Positions 10,674 to 19,551 of a stretch of 64,000 bases of DNA are shown in pieces. The DNA lies in assembly GCA_029782355.1 (NCBI GenBank), contig JAKOUY010000011.1, forward strand, positions 124,001 through 188,000, read 5' to 3'. Position numbers and translations under genes: made by a program. The notes beneath the pieces were generated by a model. It had not been told where the DNA came from. It ran no database searches and saw only the letters and a list, made by a program, of their open reading frames with translations. How positions within the stretch are numbered: the stretch's first letter is position 1; each line of letters opens with the position of its first letter. This DNA comes from Actinomycetes bacterium (GTDB taxonomy: Bacteria; Actinomycetota; Acidimicrobiia; Acidimicrobiales; Ilumatobacteraceae).

Positions 10674-11638
10674 TCGAGACCGCTCCGCTCCCGCTGGAGG
10701 TCGAGGACTTCCTGGTGTGGTTGGCCGCCGAGCGAGGGCGGGCGGCCAACACCCTGGCCGCCTACCGCGGCGATCTCACCGCCTACGTCACCTGGCTCGC
10801 CCGGCGCGGCTCGACCGTGGCCACGGCCAGCACCGCCGAGCTGGAGGCGCTGATCGCCGAGCGCCGGGCGGCCGGTGCGGCACCGGCCAGCGTCGCCCGC
10901 CAGTTCGCCGCCATCCGCACGTTCCATCGGTTCTGGATGGAGGAGGGCGGGCGGGCCGACGACCCCAGCGCCGACGTCGAGGGCGTGCGCGTGCCGGCTG
11001 GCATCCCCCATCCATTGAGCGAGGACGAGGTCAACCGTCTGCTGGCCGCGGTCACCGGGACCGATCCGCTGGCCCGGCGCGATCGGGCCCTGCTGGAACT
11101 GCTCTACGCGACCGGGGCGCGGATCTCCGAAGTCGTCGGGCTCTCGCTCGACGACGTGCGCGGCGAGGACTCCCTGGTCCGCCTGGCCGGCAAGGGGTCC
11201 AAGGAGCGCCTGGTGCCCTTCGGGCGGCTCGCTGCCGCAGCACTGGCCGATTGGCTCGGGGACGGCGGCCGGCCGTTGCTGGAGCCGGCCCGCTGGGCCC
11301 GGCGCGGCGACATGGAAGCGGTGTTCCTCAACCAGCGCGGCTCGCGCCTGACCCGTCAGGCGGCCTGGCTGGTGGTCAAGAAGTACGCCGACCGGGTCGG
11401 GCTGGCCGCCAAGCTGTCGCCGCACGTGCTGCGCCACAGCTGCGCCACCCACCTGCTGGACCACGGCGCCGACCTGCGCGTCGTGCAGGAGATGCTGGGC
11501 CACGCCAGCATCTCGACCACCCAGGTGTACACCAAGGTCAGCCAGGAGCGCTTGTTCCGCGAATATCGCCGAGCCCACCCGCGGGCCAAGAAGCGCCGAC
11601 CCGAGCCACCGGGCGGTTCGAGGCGTCTGCAAGACTGA
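10670..11638 (+). CDS. xerD: Tyrosine recombinase XerD
   Basis: Site-specific recombinase that resolves chromosome dimers at dif with XerC and FtsK, 322 aa. The N-terminal core-binding domain covers about 8-105. The complete catalytic set is visible: R151, K175, H252, R255, H278 and nucleophile Y287. The length and position behind pyrG/nudix mark it as the housekeeping protein and not an integrase; no attachment site or phage gene is nearby. The C-terminal extension after Tyr287 is basic and about 35 residues long, longer than usual. Confidence 0.93.
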   Translation: MIETAPLPLEVEDFLVWLAAERGRAANTLAAYRGDLTAYVTWLARRGSTVATASTAELEALIAERRAAGAAPASVARQFAAIRTFHRFWMEEGGRADDPSADVEGVRVPAGIPHPLSEDEVNRLLAAVTGTDPLARRDRALLELLYATGARISEVVGLSLDDVRGEDSLVRLAGKGSKERLVPFGRLAAAALADWLGDGGRPLLEPARWARRGDMEAVFLNQRGSRLTRQAAWLVVKKYADRVGLAAKLSPHVLRHSCATHLLDHGADLRVVQEMLGHASISTTQVYTKVSQERLFREYRRAHPRAKKRRPEPPGGSRRLQD

Positions 11639-11644
11639 CCGCCC

Positions 11645-12424
11645 ATGGCCGAGCGCAGCGACCAGCCGGCCGGAGGAGGGGACCTGGCCCTGGCGTTCCA
11701 CGACGTCGGGATGACCTTCGCCGACGGCACCGAAGCGGTCCGCGACGTCACCGTCGACGTGCGCCGCGGCGAGTTCGTCACCATCGTCGGGCCGTCGGGG
11801 TGCGGCAAGTCGACCCTGCTGCGCATCGCCGCCGGATTGCAGACCCACAGCGCCGGCGAGGTGGTCGTCGACCGCTCACGGATCGGGTACGTGTTCCAGG
11901 ACCCGACCCTGCTGCCGTGGCGGACGGTCCGCCAGAACGTCGAACTGCTGCCCCAGCTCCACGGGATGGACAAGGCCACCCGCCGCCGCCTGGCGGACGA
12001 GGCGATCGCCACGGTCGGGCTGGCCGGGTTCGAGCAGCACTACCCGAAGACGCTGTCGGGCGGCATGCGCATGCGCTGCTCGCTGGCCCGCTCGCTGACC
12101 CTTCGTCCACCGCTGTTCCTGTTCGACGAGCCGTTCGGCGCGGTCGACGAGATCACCCGCGAGCGGCTCAACGACGAGACCCAACAGCTGTTCCAGGCCG
12201 AGCGCTTCGCCGGGCTGTTCATCACCCACTCGATCAGCGAGGCGGTGTACATGAGCACGCGGGTGCTGGTCATGAGCGCCCGTCCAGGCACGATCACCCG
12301 CGGCTTCACCGTGCCGTTCGGGTATCCCCGCCAACCGGAGCTGCGCTTCGAGGCGTCCTTCGCCGACCTGTGCCACGAGATCAGCGTCGAGCTGCGCGAG
12401 GCATCCGCCGGAGCCGGGCGGTGA
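11645..12424 (+). CDS. ABC transporter ATPase, nitrate/sulfonate/pyrimidine-precursor type
   Basis: Nucleotide-binding subunit, 259 aa. Walker A GPSGCGKST at 49-57, Q-loop VFQDPTLLPW, signature LSGGMRMR, Walker B LFLFDEPFGAVDE, and the switch His in FITHSI. This is the SsuB/TauB/ThiZ class. The 19-residue block from FLFDEP to ERLN is identical in the truncated ATPase at 63477-64000. GTGA overlap with the permease downstream. Confidence 0.93.
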   Translation: MAERSDQPAGGGDLALAFHDVGMTFADGTEAVRDVTVDVRRGEFVTIVGPSGCGKSTLLRIAAGLQTHSAGEVVVDRSRIGYVFQDPTLLPWRTVRQNVELLPQLHGMDKATRRRLADEAIATVGLAGFEQHYPKTLSGGMRMRCSLARSLTLRPPLFLFDEPFGAVDEITRERLNDETQQLFQAERFAGLFITHSISEAVYMSTRVLVMSARPGTITRGFTVPFGYPRQPELRFEASFADLCHEISVELREASAGAGR

Positions 12425-13272
12425 GCGAGCTGCGGCCGCGCCGCTACGGGCCGCGGCCCCAGACCCTGCCCGGCCGCAGCCGCCGCCTGGCGGCCGTCGT
12501 CGTCCCGCCGCTGATCCTCGGCGCGATCCTGACCGGCGTGTGGTACTACGCCAGCTACGTCTGGCTCCGCGGCCGGCGGCGAGTGCTGCTGGCGCCCCCC
12601 CACAAGGTGATCACCGACGGCTTCGGCGACTCCACCCACCTGGGCGAGATCCTTGCCGCCGCCGGGCGCAGTGGCGACGTGGCGCTGCGCGGCCTGATCA
12701 TCGCCATCCTGATCGGACTGACCCTGGCCACGCTGATGAGCCAGTGGCGCAGCGTCGAGCGGGCGGTGTGGCCGTACATGATCAGCCTGCAGGCCATCCC
12801 GATCCTGGCGATGGTGCCGGTCATCGCCCTGCTGTTCGACACCGGCAAGACCAGCCGGATCATCGTCTGCGTGATCTTCTCGTTGTTCCCGATGGTGGTC
12901 AACGCCCTGTTCGGGCTGAAGTCGGCCGACCAGGGGCACCACGACCTGTTCACGCTGAACAACGCCAGCCGCTGGACCCGGCTGACCAAGCTGCTGATCC
13001 CCGGGGCGATGCCGGCGGTGTTCGCCGGGCTGCGGATCAGCGCCAGCCTGGCCCTGATCGGCGGGATCGTCGCCGACTTCTTCTTCGGCCGCGGCCAGGT
13101 CGGGCTGGGGCAGATGATCGTCCGCTTCAAGAGCGAGACGAACAGCCCGCTGACCCTGACGGCCATCGCCGTGGCCTGCATCTTCGGGGTGATCGTCTTC
13201 CTGGTGTTCAGCTGGATCGAGCGCCGGGTGGTAGGAAGGTGGTACGTGTCAGCAGGCCGCAACGGACCGTGA
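12421..13272 (+). CDS. ABC transporter permease, SsuC/ThiX-like
   Basis: 283 aa with about six membrane segments and the BPD-type cytoplasmic loop LFTLNNASRWTRLTKLLIPGAMP, the coupling EAA-like region. The GTG start overlaps the ATPase stop. It pairs with the ATPase before it and the binding protein after it; its counterpart at 62590-63480 shares the QAIPILAMVP-type and LFTL..AS.WTR segments. Confidence 0.92.
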   Translation: MSELRPRRYGPRPQTLPGRSRRLAAVVVPPLILGAILTGVWYYASYVWLRGRRRVLLAPPHKVITDGFGDSTHLGEILAAAGRSGDVALRGLIIAILIGLTLATLMSQWRSVERAVWPYMISLQAIPILAMVPVIALLFDTGKTSRIIVCVIFSLFPMVVNALFGLKSADQGHHDLFTLNNASRWTRLTKLLIPGAMPAVFAGLRISASLALIGGIVADFFFGRGQVGLGQMIVRFKSETNSPLTLTAIAVACIFGVIVFLVFSWIERRVVGRWYVSAGRNGP

Positions 13273-13300
13273 ACCGGCCGTGAACCGTAGGGGAGAACCG

Positions 13301-14545
13301 ATGACCAAGACCGCAACCCGCAGGATCGGCGCCCTCGCCGGCCTGACCTCCCTGGCGCTGGTGGCCGGGGCCACCGCAGCCCGGGCGACGACGCCGCCCG
13401 CCACGGCCGGGACGGCGGCCGCCGCCGGCGTGTCGCTGCAGGGCACCTGCCCCGACACGGTGACGATCCAGACCGACTGGTGGCCGGAGGCCGAGCACGG
13501 CGGCCTGTACGAACTGGTCGGGCCGGGTTACACCATCGACAAGGACGCCAAGAACGTCACCGGGCCGCTGGTCAGCAAGGGTCAGGACACCGGCGTCAAG
13601 GTGCAGATCCGCGCCGGCGGCAGCGCCATCCCCGGGTCGGTGGCCGACGAGATGGTCGCCCACGACGACATCATGCTGGGCTACTTCAACATCGAGGGGT
13701 CGGCCACCAACAAGGCGGTCAAGCTGCTGTCGGTGGTGGCCCCGCTGGAGAAGAACCCGCAGATGATCATGTGGGATCCGGCGACCTACCCGGACGTCAC
13801 GGCGATCAAGGACCTCCAGCAGCACGACGTCCCGGTGTTGGTGTTCGGCAAGGGCATCGTCGCCAAGTGGATGATCGCCAAGGGGATCCTCAAGGACGGG
13901 CAGTTCGACACCTCCTTCGACGGCTCGCCGGACCGCTTCGTCGCCGACGGCAAGGTGGCCATGCAGGGCTTCGCCACCGCCGAGCCGTACAAGTTCGAGC
14001 ACGACCTGCCGTCGTGGAACAAGCCGATCGCGTTCCAGACCTACTACGACGCCGGGTGGAAGACCTACAGCCAGACGCTGGCGATCCTGGCCGACGACAA
14101 GGCCAAGCTGGCACCGTGTCTGAAGCTGCTGGTCCCGATCATCCAGCAGGCCCAGGTCGACTACATCCAGTCGCCCGACACGGCGAACGCGATCATCGGT
14201 GAGGCGGTCAAGGCCTACGACAACTTCTGGACGCAGAGCCCCGAGTTGATGCGCTTCTCCGACGAGCAGCAGCTCAAGCTGGGCATCGTCGGCAACGGCG
14301 ACGATGCCACCCTGGGCAACATGGACGAGGCCCGCATCCAGACGGTGATCGACGAGCTGAAGGCCACGCCGGGCGTCGACCTGCGTCCCGACGTCACGGC
14401 CGGCGACCTGTACACCAACGAGTTCATCGATCCCTCGATCGGCCTCCCGGCCGGCTCGCCGGCCACGGGGGGCACGACTGCGGCCACCACGCCCGCACCC
14501 ACCACACCCGGCACGATGACCGCCGGGACCACTGCGCACAGCTGA
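13301..14545 (+). CDS. NMT1/THI5-type periplasmic substrate-binding protein
   Basis: 414 aa with a signal peptide (about 1-29, positive n-region, hydrophobic core, cleavage near ARA-TT). No lipobox Cys is seen. The QTDWWPEAEHGGLY segment right after the signal matches the family's D-W-x-P...H-x-G-x-Y ligand segment. The last 35 residues are Thr/Pro-rich, perhaps a cell-wall spacer. ATG 13301 has GGGGAG upstream and is preferred to GTG 13280. Ligands of this family include hydroxymethylpyrimidine, riboflavin, nitrate and sulfonates; which one applies cannot be read here. Paralog of the protein at 61342-62532. Confidence 0.88.
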   Translation: MTKTATRRIGALAGLTSLALVAGATAARATTPPATAGTAAAAGVSLQGTCPDTVTIQTDWWPEAEHGGLYELVGPGYTIDKDAKNVTGPLVSKGQDTGVKVQIRAGGSAIPGSVADEMVAHDDIMLGYFNIEGSATNKAVKLLSVVAPLEKNPQMIMWDPATYPDVTAIKDLQQHDVPVLVFGKGIVAKWMIAKGILKDGQFDTSFDGSPDRFVADGKVAMQGFATAEPYKFEHDLPSWNKPIAFQTYYDAGWKTYSQTLAILADDKAKLAPCLKLLVPIIQQAQVDYIQSPDTANAIIGEAVKAYDNFWTQSPELMRFSDEQQLKLGIVGNGDDATLGNMDEARIQTVIDELKATPGVDLRPDVTAGDLYTNEFIDPSIGLPAGSPATGGTTAATTPAPTTPGTMTAGTTAHS

Positions 14546-14546
14546 G

Positions 14547-14564
14547 CGCCCGCGGCGGCGGGCG
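14547..14564 (+). terminator. GC-rich hairpin after the binding-protein gene
   Basis: Perfect 7-bp stem cgcccgc/gcgggcg with a 4-nt loop directly after the stop codon and before the Shine-Dalgarno of the next gene. There is no U-tract, so it may attenuate or stabilise rather than fully terminate. Confidence 0.5.
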
Positions 14565-14587
14565 GTCCCCGAGGAAAGGACACCAAC

Positions 14588-14986
14588 ATGATGCGGCTGA
14601 CGATCACGGCGGAGGTCACCGCCCGCTGGGGCCACCGGGTCGACGGGCTGATCCACAGCCACGCCTGGACGGTGGGCGCCACCGTCGAGGGTCCGGCGGA
14701 CGCGGCGATCATCATCCCCGCCGACGATCTCGAGGCGCTCCTGCTGGCCAAGGTGGCCCCGTGGGTCGGTCACTACCTGACCCATGAGGACGTCGGACCG
14801 TGGAAGTCCTATCAGCCGCTGGTATGGGATCGGGAGCCGACCGTCGAGGAGATCGCCCGGCGGCTGTGGTCGGCGGTCGCCGACGACGTCCCCGGACTGG
14901 TCGAGGTGTTCCTCGTCGAGGCCACCGAGTTCGACCGGACCCGTACCGTCCGGCTGTCGCGCGAGCACAGCTACGCCGACGCCTGA
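14588..14986 (+). CDS. 6-pyruvoyl-tetrahydropterin synthase/QueD-like protein
   Basis: 132 aa, the usual length of the T-fold PTPS/QueD family. The HSHAWTVGATVEG segment matches the family's H-x-H zinc strand, and the PTVEEIARRLW and VEVFLVEA...R.VRLS segments match the conserved helix and final strand. The Cys/His catalytic pair of canonical QueD is not obvious, so the reaction is uncertain. ATG 14588 (or 14591) follows GAGGAAAGGA by 7 nt. Its position directly after a pyrimidine/vitamin-type importer hints at a pterin or deazapurine link, but that is inference. Confidence 0.7.
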   Translation: MMRLTITAEVTARWGHRVDGLIHSHAWTVGATVEGPADAAIIIPADDLEALLLAKVAPWVGHYLTHEDVGPWKSYQPLVWDREPTVEEIARRLWSAVADDVPGLVEVFLVEATEFDRTRTVRLSREHSYADA

Positions 14987-14987
14987 G

Positions 14988-16631
14988 CTGGGCCCGGCAC
15001 ACCGCCGGGCCCGGCTGCTCCAGCGGCTGTACGGCGAGGCCGCCGGACCCGTCGCCGCCCAGCTCGATGCTCTGATCGATCGTTCGCCGCGCCGCTCCGT
15101 GGCCCCGGCCGGTCCGTCGACCAACTTCCTGATCGCCTACCCGGACCACGTGACCGCGCCGGGCCGGCCGTCGCTGGCCGTGCTCGACGAGTTCGTCACC
15201 CGCCACCTCGCCCCGCGGATCGGCGGCGTGCACACCTTGCCGCTGCACCCGAGCACCAGCGACGGCGGGTTCAGCGTGGTCGACCCGGGTGTCGTCGACG
15301 ACGCCTACGGTGACTGGGACGACGTTCGCCGCCTGGCGGCGCACCACCGGTGGATGGCCGACGCCGTGGTCAACCACGTCTCGGCGTCGAGCCCGTGGCT
15401 GGCGGGATACCTGGCCGGCTCGCCCCAGCGGGCCGGCTTCTTCCGCGAGCTGCCGGCGGGCACCGACGTCTCCGCGGTGGTCCGCCCACGGACCTCGCCG
15501 CTCGGCCACGACTTCACCCGCCCCGACGGCAGCACCGTGCGGCTGTGGACCACCTTCTCCGCCGACCAGGTCGACCTCGACCTGGCCAATCCGGCCGTAC
15601 TGGTTGCCGTGGCCGAGATGGTCCTGCGCTACGTGCGCGCCGGTGCGGCGGCGGTGCGCCTCGACGCGGTGGCCTTCCTCTGGAAGGATCCGGCACGTTC
15701 GTCGATGAGCCTGCCGGAGACCCACGCCGTGGTCCAGGTGCTGCGCACACTGCTCGACGAGGCGGCCCCGGGCTGCCTGCTGGTCACCGAGACCAACGTG
15801 CCCGCCGCCGAGAACGTCGCCTACCTCGGCGGGCCGAGCACGCCCGAGGCCGGTGCCGTGTATCAGTTCCCCCTGCCGCCGCTGGTGCTCGACGCGCTGC
15901 TGGGCGGGGATGCCACGGTTCTCAACGGCTGGCTGGGGGCACTGCCCGCGCCACCCTCGGGGGCCACCTACCTGAACATGCTGGCCACCCACGACGGCAT
16001 CGGCCTGCGTGGTGCGGAGGGCTTGCTGGACGACGCCCGGATCACCCGACTGATCGCCGCCACCGAGGCCAGCGGGGGCACCGTCAACCGCCGGGACGCC
16101 CCCGGCGGGGCCGTCCCCTACGAGCTGTGCACCACCTGGTACTCCGTGCTGGCCGAGGGACACCCACCGGCCGCGGCGATGGCCCGTCACCTGGCCGGCC
16201 ATGCCATTGCCCTGGCCCTCCAGGGCATCCCGCTCCTCTACCTCGGTGCACTGGCCGCCGCAGCCAACGACCGCGATCGCCTCGCCGCCACCGGTCACGG
16301 GCGCGACCTGAACCGCACCCGCTTCGACGCCGACGACCTGTCCCGCCGCCTGGCCGACCGACGCACGCCGGCGGGCGCCTCGTGGACCGGTCTCGCCGGT
16401 CTGCTCGATCGCCGAGCGGGCGATGGAGCGTTCGCCCCCGAGGCCGCCCAGGTCGTCGCCGACACGGGCCGGCACGCCGTCGTCATCGAGCGCCGCGCCG
16501 CCGGCGGGCACACGACCTGTGTCGCGGTGAACGTCACGGGTGCGGTCCAGCGGGTCGAGCTCGCCGACGGCTCGGCGGTCACGCTGGGGCCGTGGGCCGT
16601 TCACTGGCCGGTCGGCGCTGGGACATACTGA
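14988..16631 (+). CDS. GH13_18 sucrose-phosphorylase-like enzyme (probable CTG start)
   Basis: Alpha-glucosidic phosphorylase-type enzyme, 547 aa, with the GH13 residues in the sucrose phosphorylase setting: nucleophile D226 in VRLDAVAFLWK, acid/base E268 in VTETNVP, and D336 in ATHDGIG. Members phosphorolyse sucrose, glucosylglycerol or glucosylglycerate; the substrate cannot be set here. The homologous region starts right after the PTPS stop, but no ATG, GTG or TTG occurs in frame there. The nearest codon is CTG at 14988, 2 nt after that stop. Frames further upstream read as out-of-frame PTPS sequence. Confidence 0.88.
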   Translation: MGPAHRRARLLQRLYGEAAGPVAAQLDALIDRSPRRSVAPAGPSTNFLIAYPDHVTAPGRPSLAVLDEFVTRHLAPRIGGVHTLPLHPSTSDGGFSVVDPGVVDDAYGDWDDVRRLAAHHRWMADAVVNHVSASSPWLAGYLAGSPQRAGFFRELPAGTDVSAVVRPRTSPLGHDFTRPDGSTVRLWTTFSADQVDLDLANPAVLVAVAEMVLRYVRAGAAAVRLDAVAFLWKDPARSSMSLPETHAVVQVLRTLLDEAAPGCLLVTETNVPAAENVAYLGGPSTPEAGAVYQFPLPPLVLDALLGGDATVLNGWLGALPAPPSGATYLNMLATHDGIGLRGAEGLLDDARITRLIAATEASGGTVNRRDAPGGAVPYELCTTWYSVLAEGHPPAAAMARHLAGHAIALALQGIPLLYLGALAAAANDRDRLAATGHGRDLNRTRFDADDLSRRLADRRTPAGASWTGLAGLLDRRAGDGAFAPEAAQVVADTGRHAVVIERRAAGGHTTCVAVNVTGAVQRVELADGSAVTLGPWAVHWPVGAGTY

Positions 16632-16662
16632 GTCCCCGTCCACCCGACCGGAAGGACCGACG

Positions 16663-18465
16663 ATGGCCGACGACGGCGCGGCGACGTTCCGCAAGCCGGC
16701 ACGCTCCTACGAACGCTTCATGGGCCGCTACTCCCGGGCGTTGGCGCCCGGCTTCGCCGACTTCGTCGGGGCGCGGGCCGGGCTGCGGGCCCTCGACGTC
16801 GGCTGCGGCCCGGGCGCACTGACCGCCGTGCTCGTCGATCGTCTGGGTGTCGACCAGGTCGTCGCCGTCGACCCGTCGGAGAGCTTCGTCGAGGCGTGTG
16901 CCGCGCAGCATCCCGGCCTGGCGGTGTCCGCCGGCACGGCCGAGGCCACCGGCCAGGCGGCGGCATCGTTCGACCTGGCGGCCGCCCAGCTCGTGTTCCA
17001 CTTCGTCGGCGACGCCGCCGCGGCCGCAGCCGAGCTGCGCCGGGTGGTCCGCCCGGGCGGCACCGTGGCGGCGTGCGTGTGGGCCGAGGACCCCGGCGGG
17101 ATGGAGATGCTCGACCGCTTCTGGGAGGCCGCGGCGATCGCCGACCCCGGTCACGACGCCGTCGTCGACCTGCGCTTCGGGCGCCCCGGCGAGCTCGCTG
17201 CCGTGTTCGGCGACGCCGGGCTCGAGCACGTCGTCGAGGACGTGCTGACCGTGAGCTCGACCTACGCCGACGTCGCCGAGTTGTGGGACGGCTTCCTGCA
17301 GGGCATCGGCCCAGCCGGGGCGTATCTGACCAGCCGGCCTGCTGCGGTCCAGGCAGCCATCGCCGAGCAACTCACGACCGCACTCGGTCGTCCGGCCGGA
17401 CCGTTCACGCTGACGGCCGTGGCCCGCGCCGTGCGCGCCACGGTGCCGGGACGCGGTCGTCGGGGACGCCGCTGCGTCGACCTGCTCGGTCCGGAGGCGC
17501 CCGAGCGCCAGGCCCGCCTGGCGAGCCGGGTCACGGAGGCCGATCTCGACCCGGAGCTGCGCCTCCCCCTGGCGGCCATGCCCACGGTGCCGTTCGACGT
17601 GGACGATCTCGCCGAACGGCGGGCCGCGACGCTGGCGATGTTCGCCCATCTGCCCAGCCCGGCGTCGGCGGTACGGTCGACGGATCACGTGGTCGACGCC
17701 GATCGCGGAGTGGTCGTGCGCATCCACCGTCACCCCGACGGCGGCGCCGAGACCCTGCCGTGCCTGTTCACCATCCACGGTGGCGGATACGTCACCGGGA
17801 GCCGGGTGATGGACGATCCGATGCACCACGCCCTGTGCGGTCCGCTCGGGGTGGTCGGTGCCAGCGTCGAGTACCGCCTGGCACCCGAGTGCCCGTATCC
17901 CGGGCCGCTGGAGGACTGCTACGACGCGCTGGCCTGGGTGGTCGACCATGCCGACGAGGTGGGCGTCGACCCGGCACGCCTGGGGATCTACGGGGCCAGT
18001 GCCGGCGGCGGCCTGGCCGCGGCCCTGGCGTTGCTGGTGCGCGACCGGGATGAGTTCGACCTGCGTTTCCAGGTGTTGATGTGCCCGATGCTGGACGACC
18101 GCCAGCTGACCCCGTCGAGCCGTCTCGATGGGCTGCCGATCTGGAACCGGGAGGCCAACGAGTTCGGCTGGCGGGCGTACCTCGGCGCCCGGTACGGCGC
18201 CGACGACCTGGCCCCCTACGCGGCCCCGGCCCGGGCACGAGACCTCGCCGGGCTGCCTCCGGCCTACGTGGCGGTGGGGGGTGTCGACGGCTTCCGCGAC
18301 GAGAACATCGACTACGCGATGCGCCTCAACCAGGCCGGTGTCCCGTGCGAGCTGCACGTCTACCCGGGCGGCCCGCACGGGTACCAGATGTTCCTCGACT
18401 CGGCCGTCGCGGTGCGCAGCGGGCGCGACCTGCGCGACTGGCTGGGCCGCCAGCTGGCCCAGTGA
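16663..18465 (+). CDS. Methyltransferase-esterase fusion protein
   Basis: One 600-aa frame carries two usually separate enzymes. Residues 1-265 form a class I SAM methyltransferase (motif I LDVGCGPG at 44-51) that ends in FTLTAVARAVRATVPGR, a typical C-terminus of such enzymes. An Arg-rich linker (about 266-310) leads to an HSL-type alpha/beta hydrolase with HGGG at 372-375 and catalytic triad S446 (GASAGG), D542 and H572. GAAGGA lies 6 nt before the ATG. A natural fusion or an old read-through of two adjacent genes both fit; no stop is present at the junction. Substrates unknown. Confidence 0.88.
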   Translation: MADDGAATFRKPARSYERFMGRYSRALAPGFADFVGARAGLRALDVGCGPGALTAVLVDRLGVDQVVAVDPSESFVEACAAQHPGLAVSAGTAEATGQAAASFDLAAAQLVFHFVGDAAAAAAELRRVVRPGGTVAACVWAEDPGGMEMLDRFWEAAAIADPGHDAVVDLRFGRPGELAAVFGDAGLEHVVEDVLTVSSTYADVAELWDGFLQGIGPAGAYLTSRPAAVQAAIAEQLTTALGRPAGPFTLTAVARAVRATVPGRGRRGRRCVDLLGPEAPERQARLASRVTEADLDPELRLPLAAMPTVPFDVDDLAERRAATLAMFAHLPSPASAVRSTDHVVDADRGVVVRIHRHPDGGAETLPCLFTIHGGGYVTGSRVMDDPMHHALCGPLGVVGASVEYRLAPECPYPGPLEDCYDALAWVVDHADEVGVDPARLGIYGASAGGGLAAALALLVRDRDEFDLRFQVLMCPMLDDRQLTPSSRLDGLPIWNREANEFGWRAYLGARYGADDLAPYAAPARARDLAGLPPAYVAVGGVDGFRDENIDYAMRLNQAGVPCELHVYPGGPHGYQMFLDSAVAVRSGRDLRDWLGRQLAQ

Positions 18466-18469
18466 GGGG

Positions 18470-19459
18470 TCAGTTGCGCGGCAGCATCCCGATCGCCGCG
18501 TAGGCCCGGGCCAGGGTGGCCGAGGCAACGGCCTGCGCTCGATCGGCGCCGACACGCAGCATCCGGGTCAGCTCTGCCCGATCGGCGAGCAGATCGTGGT
18601 AGCGCTGCTGCACCGGGCGAACCAGTTCGACCACCGCCTCACCGGTGTCCGACTTCAGTGGGCCGTACTGGTGATAGCGGCCGGCTAGCTCGGCGGGGGA
18701 GACGCCCGTGCACGCCGAGAGGATCTCCAGCAGGTTGCTGACTCCGGGCTTGGTGGCCCGGTCGAAGCGGACCTCGGTCTCGCTGTCGGTGACGGCCCGC
18801 TTGAACTTGCGCAAGATCACCGCCGGGTCGTCGAGCACGTTGACCAGCCCGGCGTCGCTGTCGGTCGACTTGGACATCTTCGACGTCGGATCCTGGAGGT
18901 CCATCACCCGCGCCCCGGCAGCCGGGTGAACGGCCGTGGGCAGCACGAAGGTCTCCCCGAACCGGCTGTTGAAGCGGATCGCCAGATCGCGGGTGATCTC
19001 GATGTGCTGGCGCTGGTCCTCGCCCACCGGCACCTCGTCGGCGTCGTACATCAGGATGTCGGCGGCCTGCAGCGCCGGGTAGGTGAACAGTCCGGCAGAG
19101 ATGTGCTCGCCGGACCGGCGGGCGGACTTGTCCTTGAACTGGGTCATCCGGCTCAGCTCGCCGACGCTGGCCTGGCACTCCATCACCCAGCCGAGCTGAT
19201 TGTGCTCGGGCAGGTGGCTCTGGACGAAGACCGTGGAGCGCAGCGGATCGAGGCCGACGGCGAACAGGATCGCTGCCTGGCGCAGGGTCCGCTCGGCCAG
19301 GACGCCGGGCTCGTCGAGGATGGTCAGGGCGTGCAGGTCGACCAGGCAGTAGAAGGCGTCGGCGCGGTCCTGCAGCGTCACCCAGTTGCGCAGTGCTCCG
19401 AAGTAGTTGCCGAGATGGATCTCGCCGGTGGGTTGGATGCCGGACAGCACGCGGGTCAC
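18470..19459 (-). CDS. trpS: Tryptophanyl-tRNA synthetase
   Basis: Class I aminoacyl-tRNA synthetase charging tRNA-Trp, 329 aa. The HIGH-type motif is HLGN at 15-18 and the KMSKS loop is at 194-198. GTG start with TAGCCT ending 8 nt upstream, a leaderless arrangement. It ends 4 bp from the convergent fusion gene. Confidence 0.97.
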   Translation of the reverse strand: MTRVLSGIQPTGEIHLGNYFGALRNWVTLQDRADAFYCLVDLHALTILDEPGVLAERTLRQAAILFAVGLDPLRSTVFVQSHLPEHNQLGWVMECQASVGELSRMTQFKDKSARRSGEHISAGLFTYPALQAADILMYDADEVPVGEDQRQHIEITRDLAIRFNSRFGETFVLPTAVHPAAGARVMDLQDPTSKMSKSTDSDAGLVNVLDDPAVILRKFKRAVTDSETEVRFDRATKPGVSNLLEILSACTGVSPAELAGRYHQYGPLKSDTGEAVVELVRPVQQRYHDLLADRAELTRMLRVGADRAQAVASATLARAYAAIGMLPRN

Positions 19460-19467
19460 GGCCCGAC

Positions 19468-19473
19468 AGGCTA
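19468..19473 (-). promoter_or_regulatory. -10 hexamer TAGCCT of trpS
   Basis: Minus-strand TAGCCT, 8 nt before the trpS GTG; leaderless geometry. Confidence 0.5.
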
Positions 19474-19536
19474 CCGGCGCGACCCTCGCCGGCCGGGACG
19501 GATTCGGGGTGCCGCGCCGCTCCGCACCCCACCCGG

Positions 19537-19542
19537 TACCAT
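19537..19542 (+). promoter_or_regulatory. -10 hexamer TACCAT of scpA
   Basis: TACCAT ends 9 nt before the scpA ATG; leaderless or nearly leaderless start. Confidence 0.5.
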
Positions 19543-19551
19543 CGCCTGGCC

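Follow-up and report, generated by a model that had tools for sequence, protein, structure and literature searches.

Chains that carry both a methyltransferase and an alpha/beta hydrolase are known from biotin systems. In Bacteroides fragilis, BioG and BioC are fused through a ten-residue linker into BioGC; according to the available part of the report, a comparison of Bacteroides genomes showed this fusion in B. fragilis only (PMC3494674). A second fusion, BioHC, is described in the accessible text for Cellvibrio japonicus and Saccharophagus degradans, where the proteins have 502 and 558 aa and the fused gene takes the place of adjacent bioH and bioC (PMC9894557). In cystargolide biosynthesis, as far as the excerpted text goes, the methyltransferase CysG masks a carboxylate which the hydrolase CysE frees later, and a hydrolase fusion, CysF-CysE, exists (PMC11427300).

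The window analysed here, a stretch of 64,000 nucleotides, contains a gene that joins a methyltransferase to an esterase of the hormone-sensitive lipase (HSL) type. We consider it probable that this gene is a true in-frame fusion, restricted to its lineage, of two enzyme genes that are common in stand-alone form. Listed below are the gene, its parts and its neighbours (residue numbers are those of the fusion protein).

16663..18465, + strand: fused methyltransferase-esterase gene, 600 aa, ATG start (translation, Pfam, GGAAGGA 5' of the ATG)
16663..17451, + strand: class I SAM-dependent methyltransferase domain, residues 1-263, matched over ~4-263 (Methyltransf_11, AlphaFold2, stops of stand-alone relatives)
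17452..17532, + strand: linker, residues 264-290 (~27 residues), Arg-rich at its start (low pLDDT, no start codon)
17533..18462, + strand: HSL-type (Abhydrolase_3) esterase domain, residues 291-600 (Abhydrolase_3, structure matches, AlphaFold2, motifs)
13280-14545: protein adjoining ABC transporter genes, without Pfam or NCBIfam match
14588-14986: 6-pyruvoyl tetrahydropterin synthase (PTPS)-like protein, between the transporter and GH13-type genes (Pfam E 2.4e-6, 28 bits against 22.4)
14784..16631, + strand: GH13-type enzyme, nearest sucrose phosphorylase; open frame, start probably at ~14988 (Alpha-amylase Pfam E 9.8e-12)
18470..19459, - strand: probable trpS, class I tRNA synthetase of the W/Y family (tRNA-synt_1b E 2.1e-69), convergent with the fusion gene

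With BioGC the window fusion shares a methyltransferase, an alpha/beta hydrolase and a short linker, but in BioGC the order is BioG then BioC, the hydrolase is BioG rather than an HSL-type enzyme, and the protein belongs to biotin synthesis (PMC3494674, available part). BioHC likewise unites a methyltransferase and an esterase, the latter of the methyl-ester type, on one chain; it differs in its order, BioH then BioC, and in having BioH as its hydrolase (PMC9894557, accessible text). CysG and CysE, in the part of the cystargolide report at hand, are not fused to each other, unlike the two halves here (PMC11427300). The first-pass annotation of this DNA had considered a methyl ester forming and cleaving pair on one chain unusual; fusions of a methyltransferase with a hydrolase have precedents in BioGC and BioHC. 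The window fusion is of a kind already known, methyltransferase plus alpha/beta hydrolase, as a variant with reversed order and an HSL-type hydrolase. The literature searched, taken at the level of titles and the openings of abstracts, held no fusion of a methyltransferase with an HSL-type esterase. Some fungal polyketide synthases have, at their end, a methyltransferase and after it an esterase-like domain; no such ending was found in those same portions of the literature searched.

The first-pass annotation had also proposed a single 600-aa frame with both catalytic motif sets, and here translation, Pfam and the motif positions agree: the plus-strand frame runs through 600 codons with zero internal stops, computed directly from the DNA, and GGAAGGA lies a short way 5' of the ATG at 16663. 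Pfam Methyltransf_11 matches residues 44-136 (E 4.6e-18, 66.1 bits against a gathering score of 21.2) and the glycine-rich motif I, DVGCGPG, occupies residues 45-51 (nt 16795), so that the N-terminal half belongs to the class I SAM methyltransferases by both profile and motif. Its AlphaFold2 model, built from 11 sequences, has a mean pLDDT of 88.5 and a pTM of 0.85, resembles solved methyltransferases and ends its final confident strand at residue 260. Curated family models gave 22 matches for this half, all 22 under their cut-offs, and because of this the methyl acceptor is not fixed by curated families; the best of these models include BioC and trans-aconitate methyltransferase, both of which are carboxyl methyltransferases. 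The structural matches are mixed, with trans-aconitate (2p35), juvenile hormone acid (7v2s) and LahSB (6uak) methyltransferases standing beside S-methyltransferases (TmtA by title) and some further entries that we take to be N-methyltransferases. Class I methyltransferases that occur alone in the same order and family (L044-L051, L107-L110) show 36-55% identity over window residues ~4-263 and stop at about residue 263, whereas the fusion reads on; apart from L107, where an esterase gene lies ~9 kb away, no esterase adjoins them in the stretches examined. The best methyltransferase matches listed, found among the family genomes, reach 55% identity. As a separate observation, one Thermoleophilia MAG (L014:706-2263) carries a methyltransferase of the window's type twice in tandem.

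In the C-terminal half, Pfam Abhydrolase_3 (PF07859) matches residues 369-575 (E 2.2e-58, 197.9 bits against a gathering score of 25), and HGGGY (372-376, with HGGG at 372-375), S446 in GASAGG, D542 in DGFRDE and H572 in GPHGY are all present; an alignment of 40 sequences shows no variation in the columns of HGGG and of the Ser, Asp and His. Profile and motifs together place this half in the HSL-type family, and we take HGGG to be the oxyanion loop and S446/D542/H572 the catalytic triad of that family. The AlphaFold2 model (40 sequences) has a mean pLDDT of 91.6 and a pTM of 0.89, with pLDDT of at least 90 in 278 of the 340 modelled residues, and becomes confident from about residue 291. Its nearest solved structures are 7wol (E 4e-82), 7b4q (E 2.2e-74) and the heroin esterase 1lzk (E 7.8e-63), whose alignments span nearly all of the C-terminal half; they are chains of 320-333 residues without the methyltransferase half. 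Among the curated HSL subfamilies (LipP1, GESAG, GTSAG, GCSAG and chloramphenicol hydrolase) none scored above its NCBIfam cut-off, LipP1 giving 211.8 bits against 350, and the esterase half belongs to a broad family. The best esterase matches listed, in this case among the class genomes, reach 61% identity. HSL-type esterases in tandem pairs, with 56-58% identity to the window's esterase half, were seen at two loci (L024:559-2409, L025:533-2385).

The junction was proposed to fall where stand-alone methyltransferases end and stand-alone esterases begin, and the alignments bear this out, with 14 of 14 methyltransferase relatives ending at window residues 261-264 and a possible start at 284-294 in 37 of 39 esterase relatives. 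Twelve of the methyltransferase relatives end at 261-263; the other two, L044 and L048, end at ~264 in one alignment, and in a second alignment their last residue was drawn out by the aligner as far as the window fragment extends. A stop directly follows the column of residue 263 in eight of the 14 (TGA in seven, TAG in one). The esterase relatives were scored on possible start codons (ATG, GTG or TTG) and not on known starts, and equal-width controls further in gave 23-29 of 39, so that the boundary on this side is supported, though not sharply. Between the two domains the block means of pLDDT are low, 43-67 over residues 261-293 in the methyltransferase model and 49-63 over 261-290 in the esterase model, and both models place a low-confidence helix in the second part of the linker. 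The halves were modelled separately, a joint alignment of both half-families having misplaced the methyltransferase rows and been left out of the modelling. The window has zero in-frame ATG, GTG or TTG from residue 262 to 305; the nearest in-frame GTGs (253, 257 and 261) fall inside the methyltransferase end, and a start at ATG 306 would lose the LDPE segment at 295-298. At 72% GC stops make up ~1.1% of codons in any frame, and by our own arithmetic chance alone would leave a stretch of ~30 codons between two genes open ~70% of the time. The open linker alone proves little, since stops are this rare, and the absent esterase start codon is better evidence for fusion than the open linker.

In order to see whether the same domain order occurs in other genomes, as the first-pass annotation had suggested checking, the full-length protein was compared with 61 relatives and with 395 class, 396 phylum and 221 family genomes; the window's own genome is in every set, and the four sets overlap to give 958 distinct genomes in total. 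Matches were found in 61 of 61 relatives, 382 of the class, 344 of the phylum and 217 of the family genomes, and among the matches listed only the window itself spans both halves without a stop. In the class, phylum and family sets this is a comparison of three to five scored candidates per genome, in which a strongly diverged fusion could be missed. Not one of the 752 matching plasmid records covers 80% of the fusion protein, and a search of genome contigs gave two loci, both matched in the methyltransferase half only. Only one other listed match extended far into both halves, that of G1066 in the family set over query residues 107-597, and it was rejected as a second fusion: a DUF2520 protein precedes the esterase there, with no such methyltransferase. 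Seventeen further regions and four other loci, in which listed matches cross the junction or come near it, hold one partner each and no fusion. Both partners occur in four of 130 loci, most of which reach only 1.5 kb beyond the match; three of the four are copies of the window's own locus, and the fourth (L107) is a 16-kb stretch with the two genes on opposite strands. Counted over 93 loci, the two partners were present together at two copies of the window's own locus and nowhere else. In the loci examined the methyltransferase and esterase genes do not travel together, and the fusion thus does not grow from a gene pair seen elsewhere. The first-pass annotation had named, as an outcome that would refute the fusion, that all close relatives have the two genes apart. 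All relatives listed do fit that description; however, none of the 220 other family genomes searched shares the genus, and the result therefore says no more than that the fusion is limited to this genome or its genus.

Given this restricted distribution, the origin of the frame has to be weighed. A local sequencing or assembly error that lost a stop or merged two separate genes would agree with a fusion seen in one genome only, among the matches listed, and with the seven codons between residues 263 and 292 that lie one substitution from a stop, but we regard it as unlikely. Where the relatives most often have their stop, the window has CGC, two substitutions from any stop, and if the linker did contain a stop, the esterase would have no start codon in 262-305. 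In the other two frames the first stops after 17451 lie at 17807 and 18051, far from the methyltransferase end, so that reverting one frameshift would not yield two normal genes. The genes on either side also belong together. The fusion gene sits well inside a 520 kb contig of an assembly of 40 contigs and is flanked by an integrase-family gene (Pfam Phage_integrase), which from its position we take to be xerD, and by scpA (Pfam SMC_ScpA). In nine of the ten genomes searched these two share a contig and a strand at a distance of 0.6-5.3 kb, with weak matches (26-32% identity) in G069, which is among the nine; in the tenth (G015) an end fragment of xerD lies ~1.6 kb from scpA. Since the flanks form a conserved xerD...scpA block, a long-range misassembly is unlikely. 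A reading in which two polypeptides are made, the esterase also or only from an internal GTG (253, 257 or 261) or by a cut of the fusion in its linker, has in its favour the presence of those in-frame GTGs and a low-confidence, Arg-rich linker; it is nevertheless highly improbable, for no purine-rich ribosome site is visible 5' of the three GTGs, whereas the ATG at 16663 has one. Two points weigh against the preferred reading: among the matches listed no second genome has the fusion, and, stops being rare at this GC, a frame of this kind could result from losing a single stop neutrally.

The chemistry of the chain invites a further alternative, the pair of methyl ester forming and cleaving activities that the first-pass annotation had envisaged: the methyltransferase would cap a carboxylate and the esterase on the same chain would uncap it after an intermediate step, as in the BioC-BioH or cystargolide systems. 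Fused proteins with such chemistry do exist, as the available text on BioGC (PMC3494674) and BioHC (PMC9894557) indicates. BioC and trans-aconitate methyltransferase are among the best curated models of the N-terminal half, and 2p35, 7v2s and 6uak are among its structural matches. However, the two BioC models score 59 bits against a cut-off of 342 (NF007610) and 47.1 against 184.95 (TIGR02072), and the S-methyltransferases (TmtA) and the presumed N-methyltransferases are found among the same structural matches. Unlike the biotin systems of BioGC and BioHC, the window genome, 98.04% complete, has no bioB above cut-off, the best match giving 42.7 bits against 225 in a search that passes the cut-off in seven of 14 named control genomes; for bioF there is one match, at 374.1 bits against 426.45, a cut-off passed by just five of the 14. 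The partner genes are not neighbours at the other loci examined, and a word search in the available text of three papers on BioH-type esterases met no mention of hormone-sensitive lipases (PMC7026016, PMC6138646, PMC9302846). With all 22 curated matches below cut-off, structural neighbours mixed and an esterase family that is broad, the proposed pair is not supported, and we judge a methyl-ester cycle of this kind very unlikely. Slimmer still are the chances of its specific form outside biotin synthesis, in which a carboxyl methyltransferase and an HSL-type methyl-ester hydrolase on a single chain cap and uncap the same metabolite, perhaps in connection with the GH13 and transporter genes.

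The preferred reading, a lineage-restricted in-frame fusion, would give a protein that is presumably made and active. Its N-terminal half would transfer a methyl group from SAM to a small molecule, and its C-terminal half would act as an HSL-type serine esterase, cleaving a carboxylic ester through the Ser-Asp-His triad. Each half is predicted to retain a complete fold and its own active site, tethered by the ~27-residue linker, and a single start codon would yield the two activities in equal amounts. We infer that the halves act independently, and the protein is most likely bifunctional only in the sense of two independent activities, not of opposite steps on one methyl ester. Should the fusion prove real and active, it would represent a new architecture, methyltransferase first and HSL-type esterase second, beside the few methyltransferase-alpha/beta hydrolase fusions known, and would hint that the substrates of both halves are related. 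On the present evidence it consists of two very common enzymes fused in one genome and is chiefly a lead toward those substrates.

Regarding the surroundings of the gene, a 658-aa antisense open frame lies opposite it on the minus strand (window 16579-18555), a common outcome at 72% GC and no evidence of a gene. The tRNA synthetase gene downstream presumably has tryptophan rather than tyrosine specificity. Upstream, the GH13-type gene scores 150.6 bits with the sucrose phosphorylase model TIGR03852 (E 5.1e-44), under the cut-off of 334.4, and gives no pointer to the substrate; it ends 31 nt 5' of the fusion gene's start codon, a gap at which a shared transcript is possible. The product of 13280-14545 is, by position, perhaps the substrate-binding part of the ABC transporter. 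In the window the gap between xerD and scpA (11638-19543) measures 7.9 kb, against 0.6-5.3 kb in the nine genomes measured, and holds the ABC transporter, PTPS-like, GH13, fusion and tRNA-synthetase genes; it has the look of a variable site of insertion within a conserved block.
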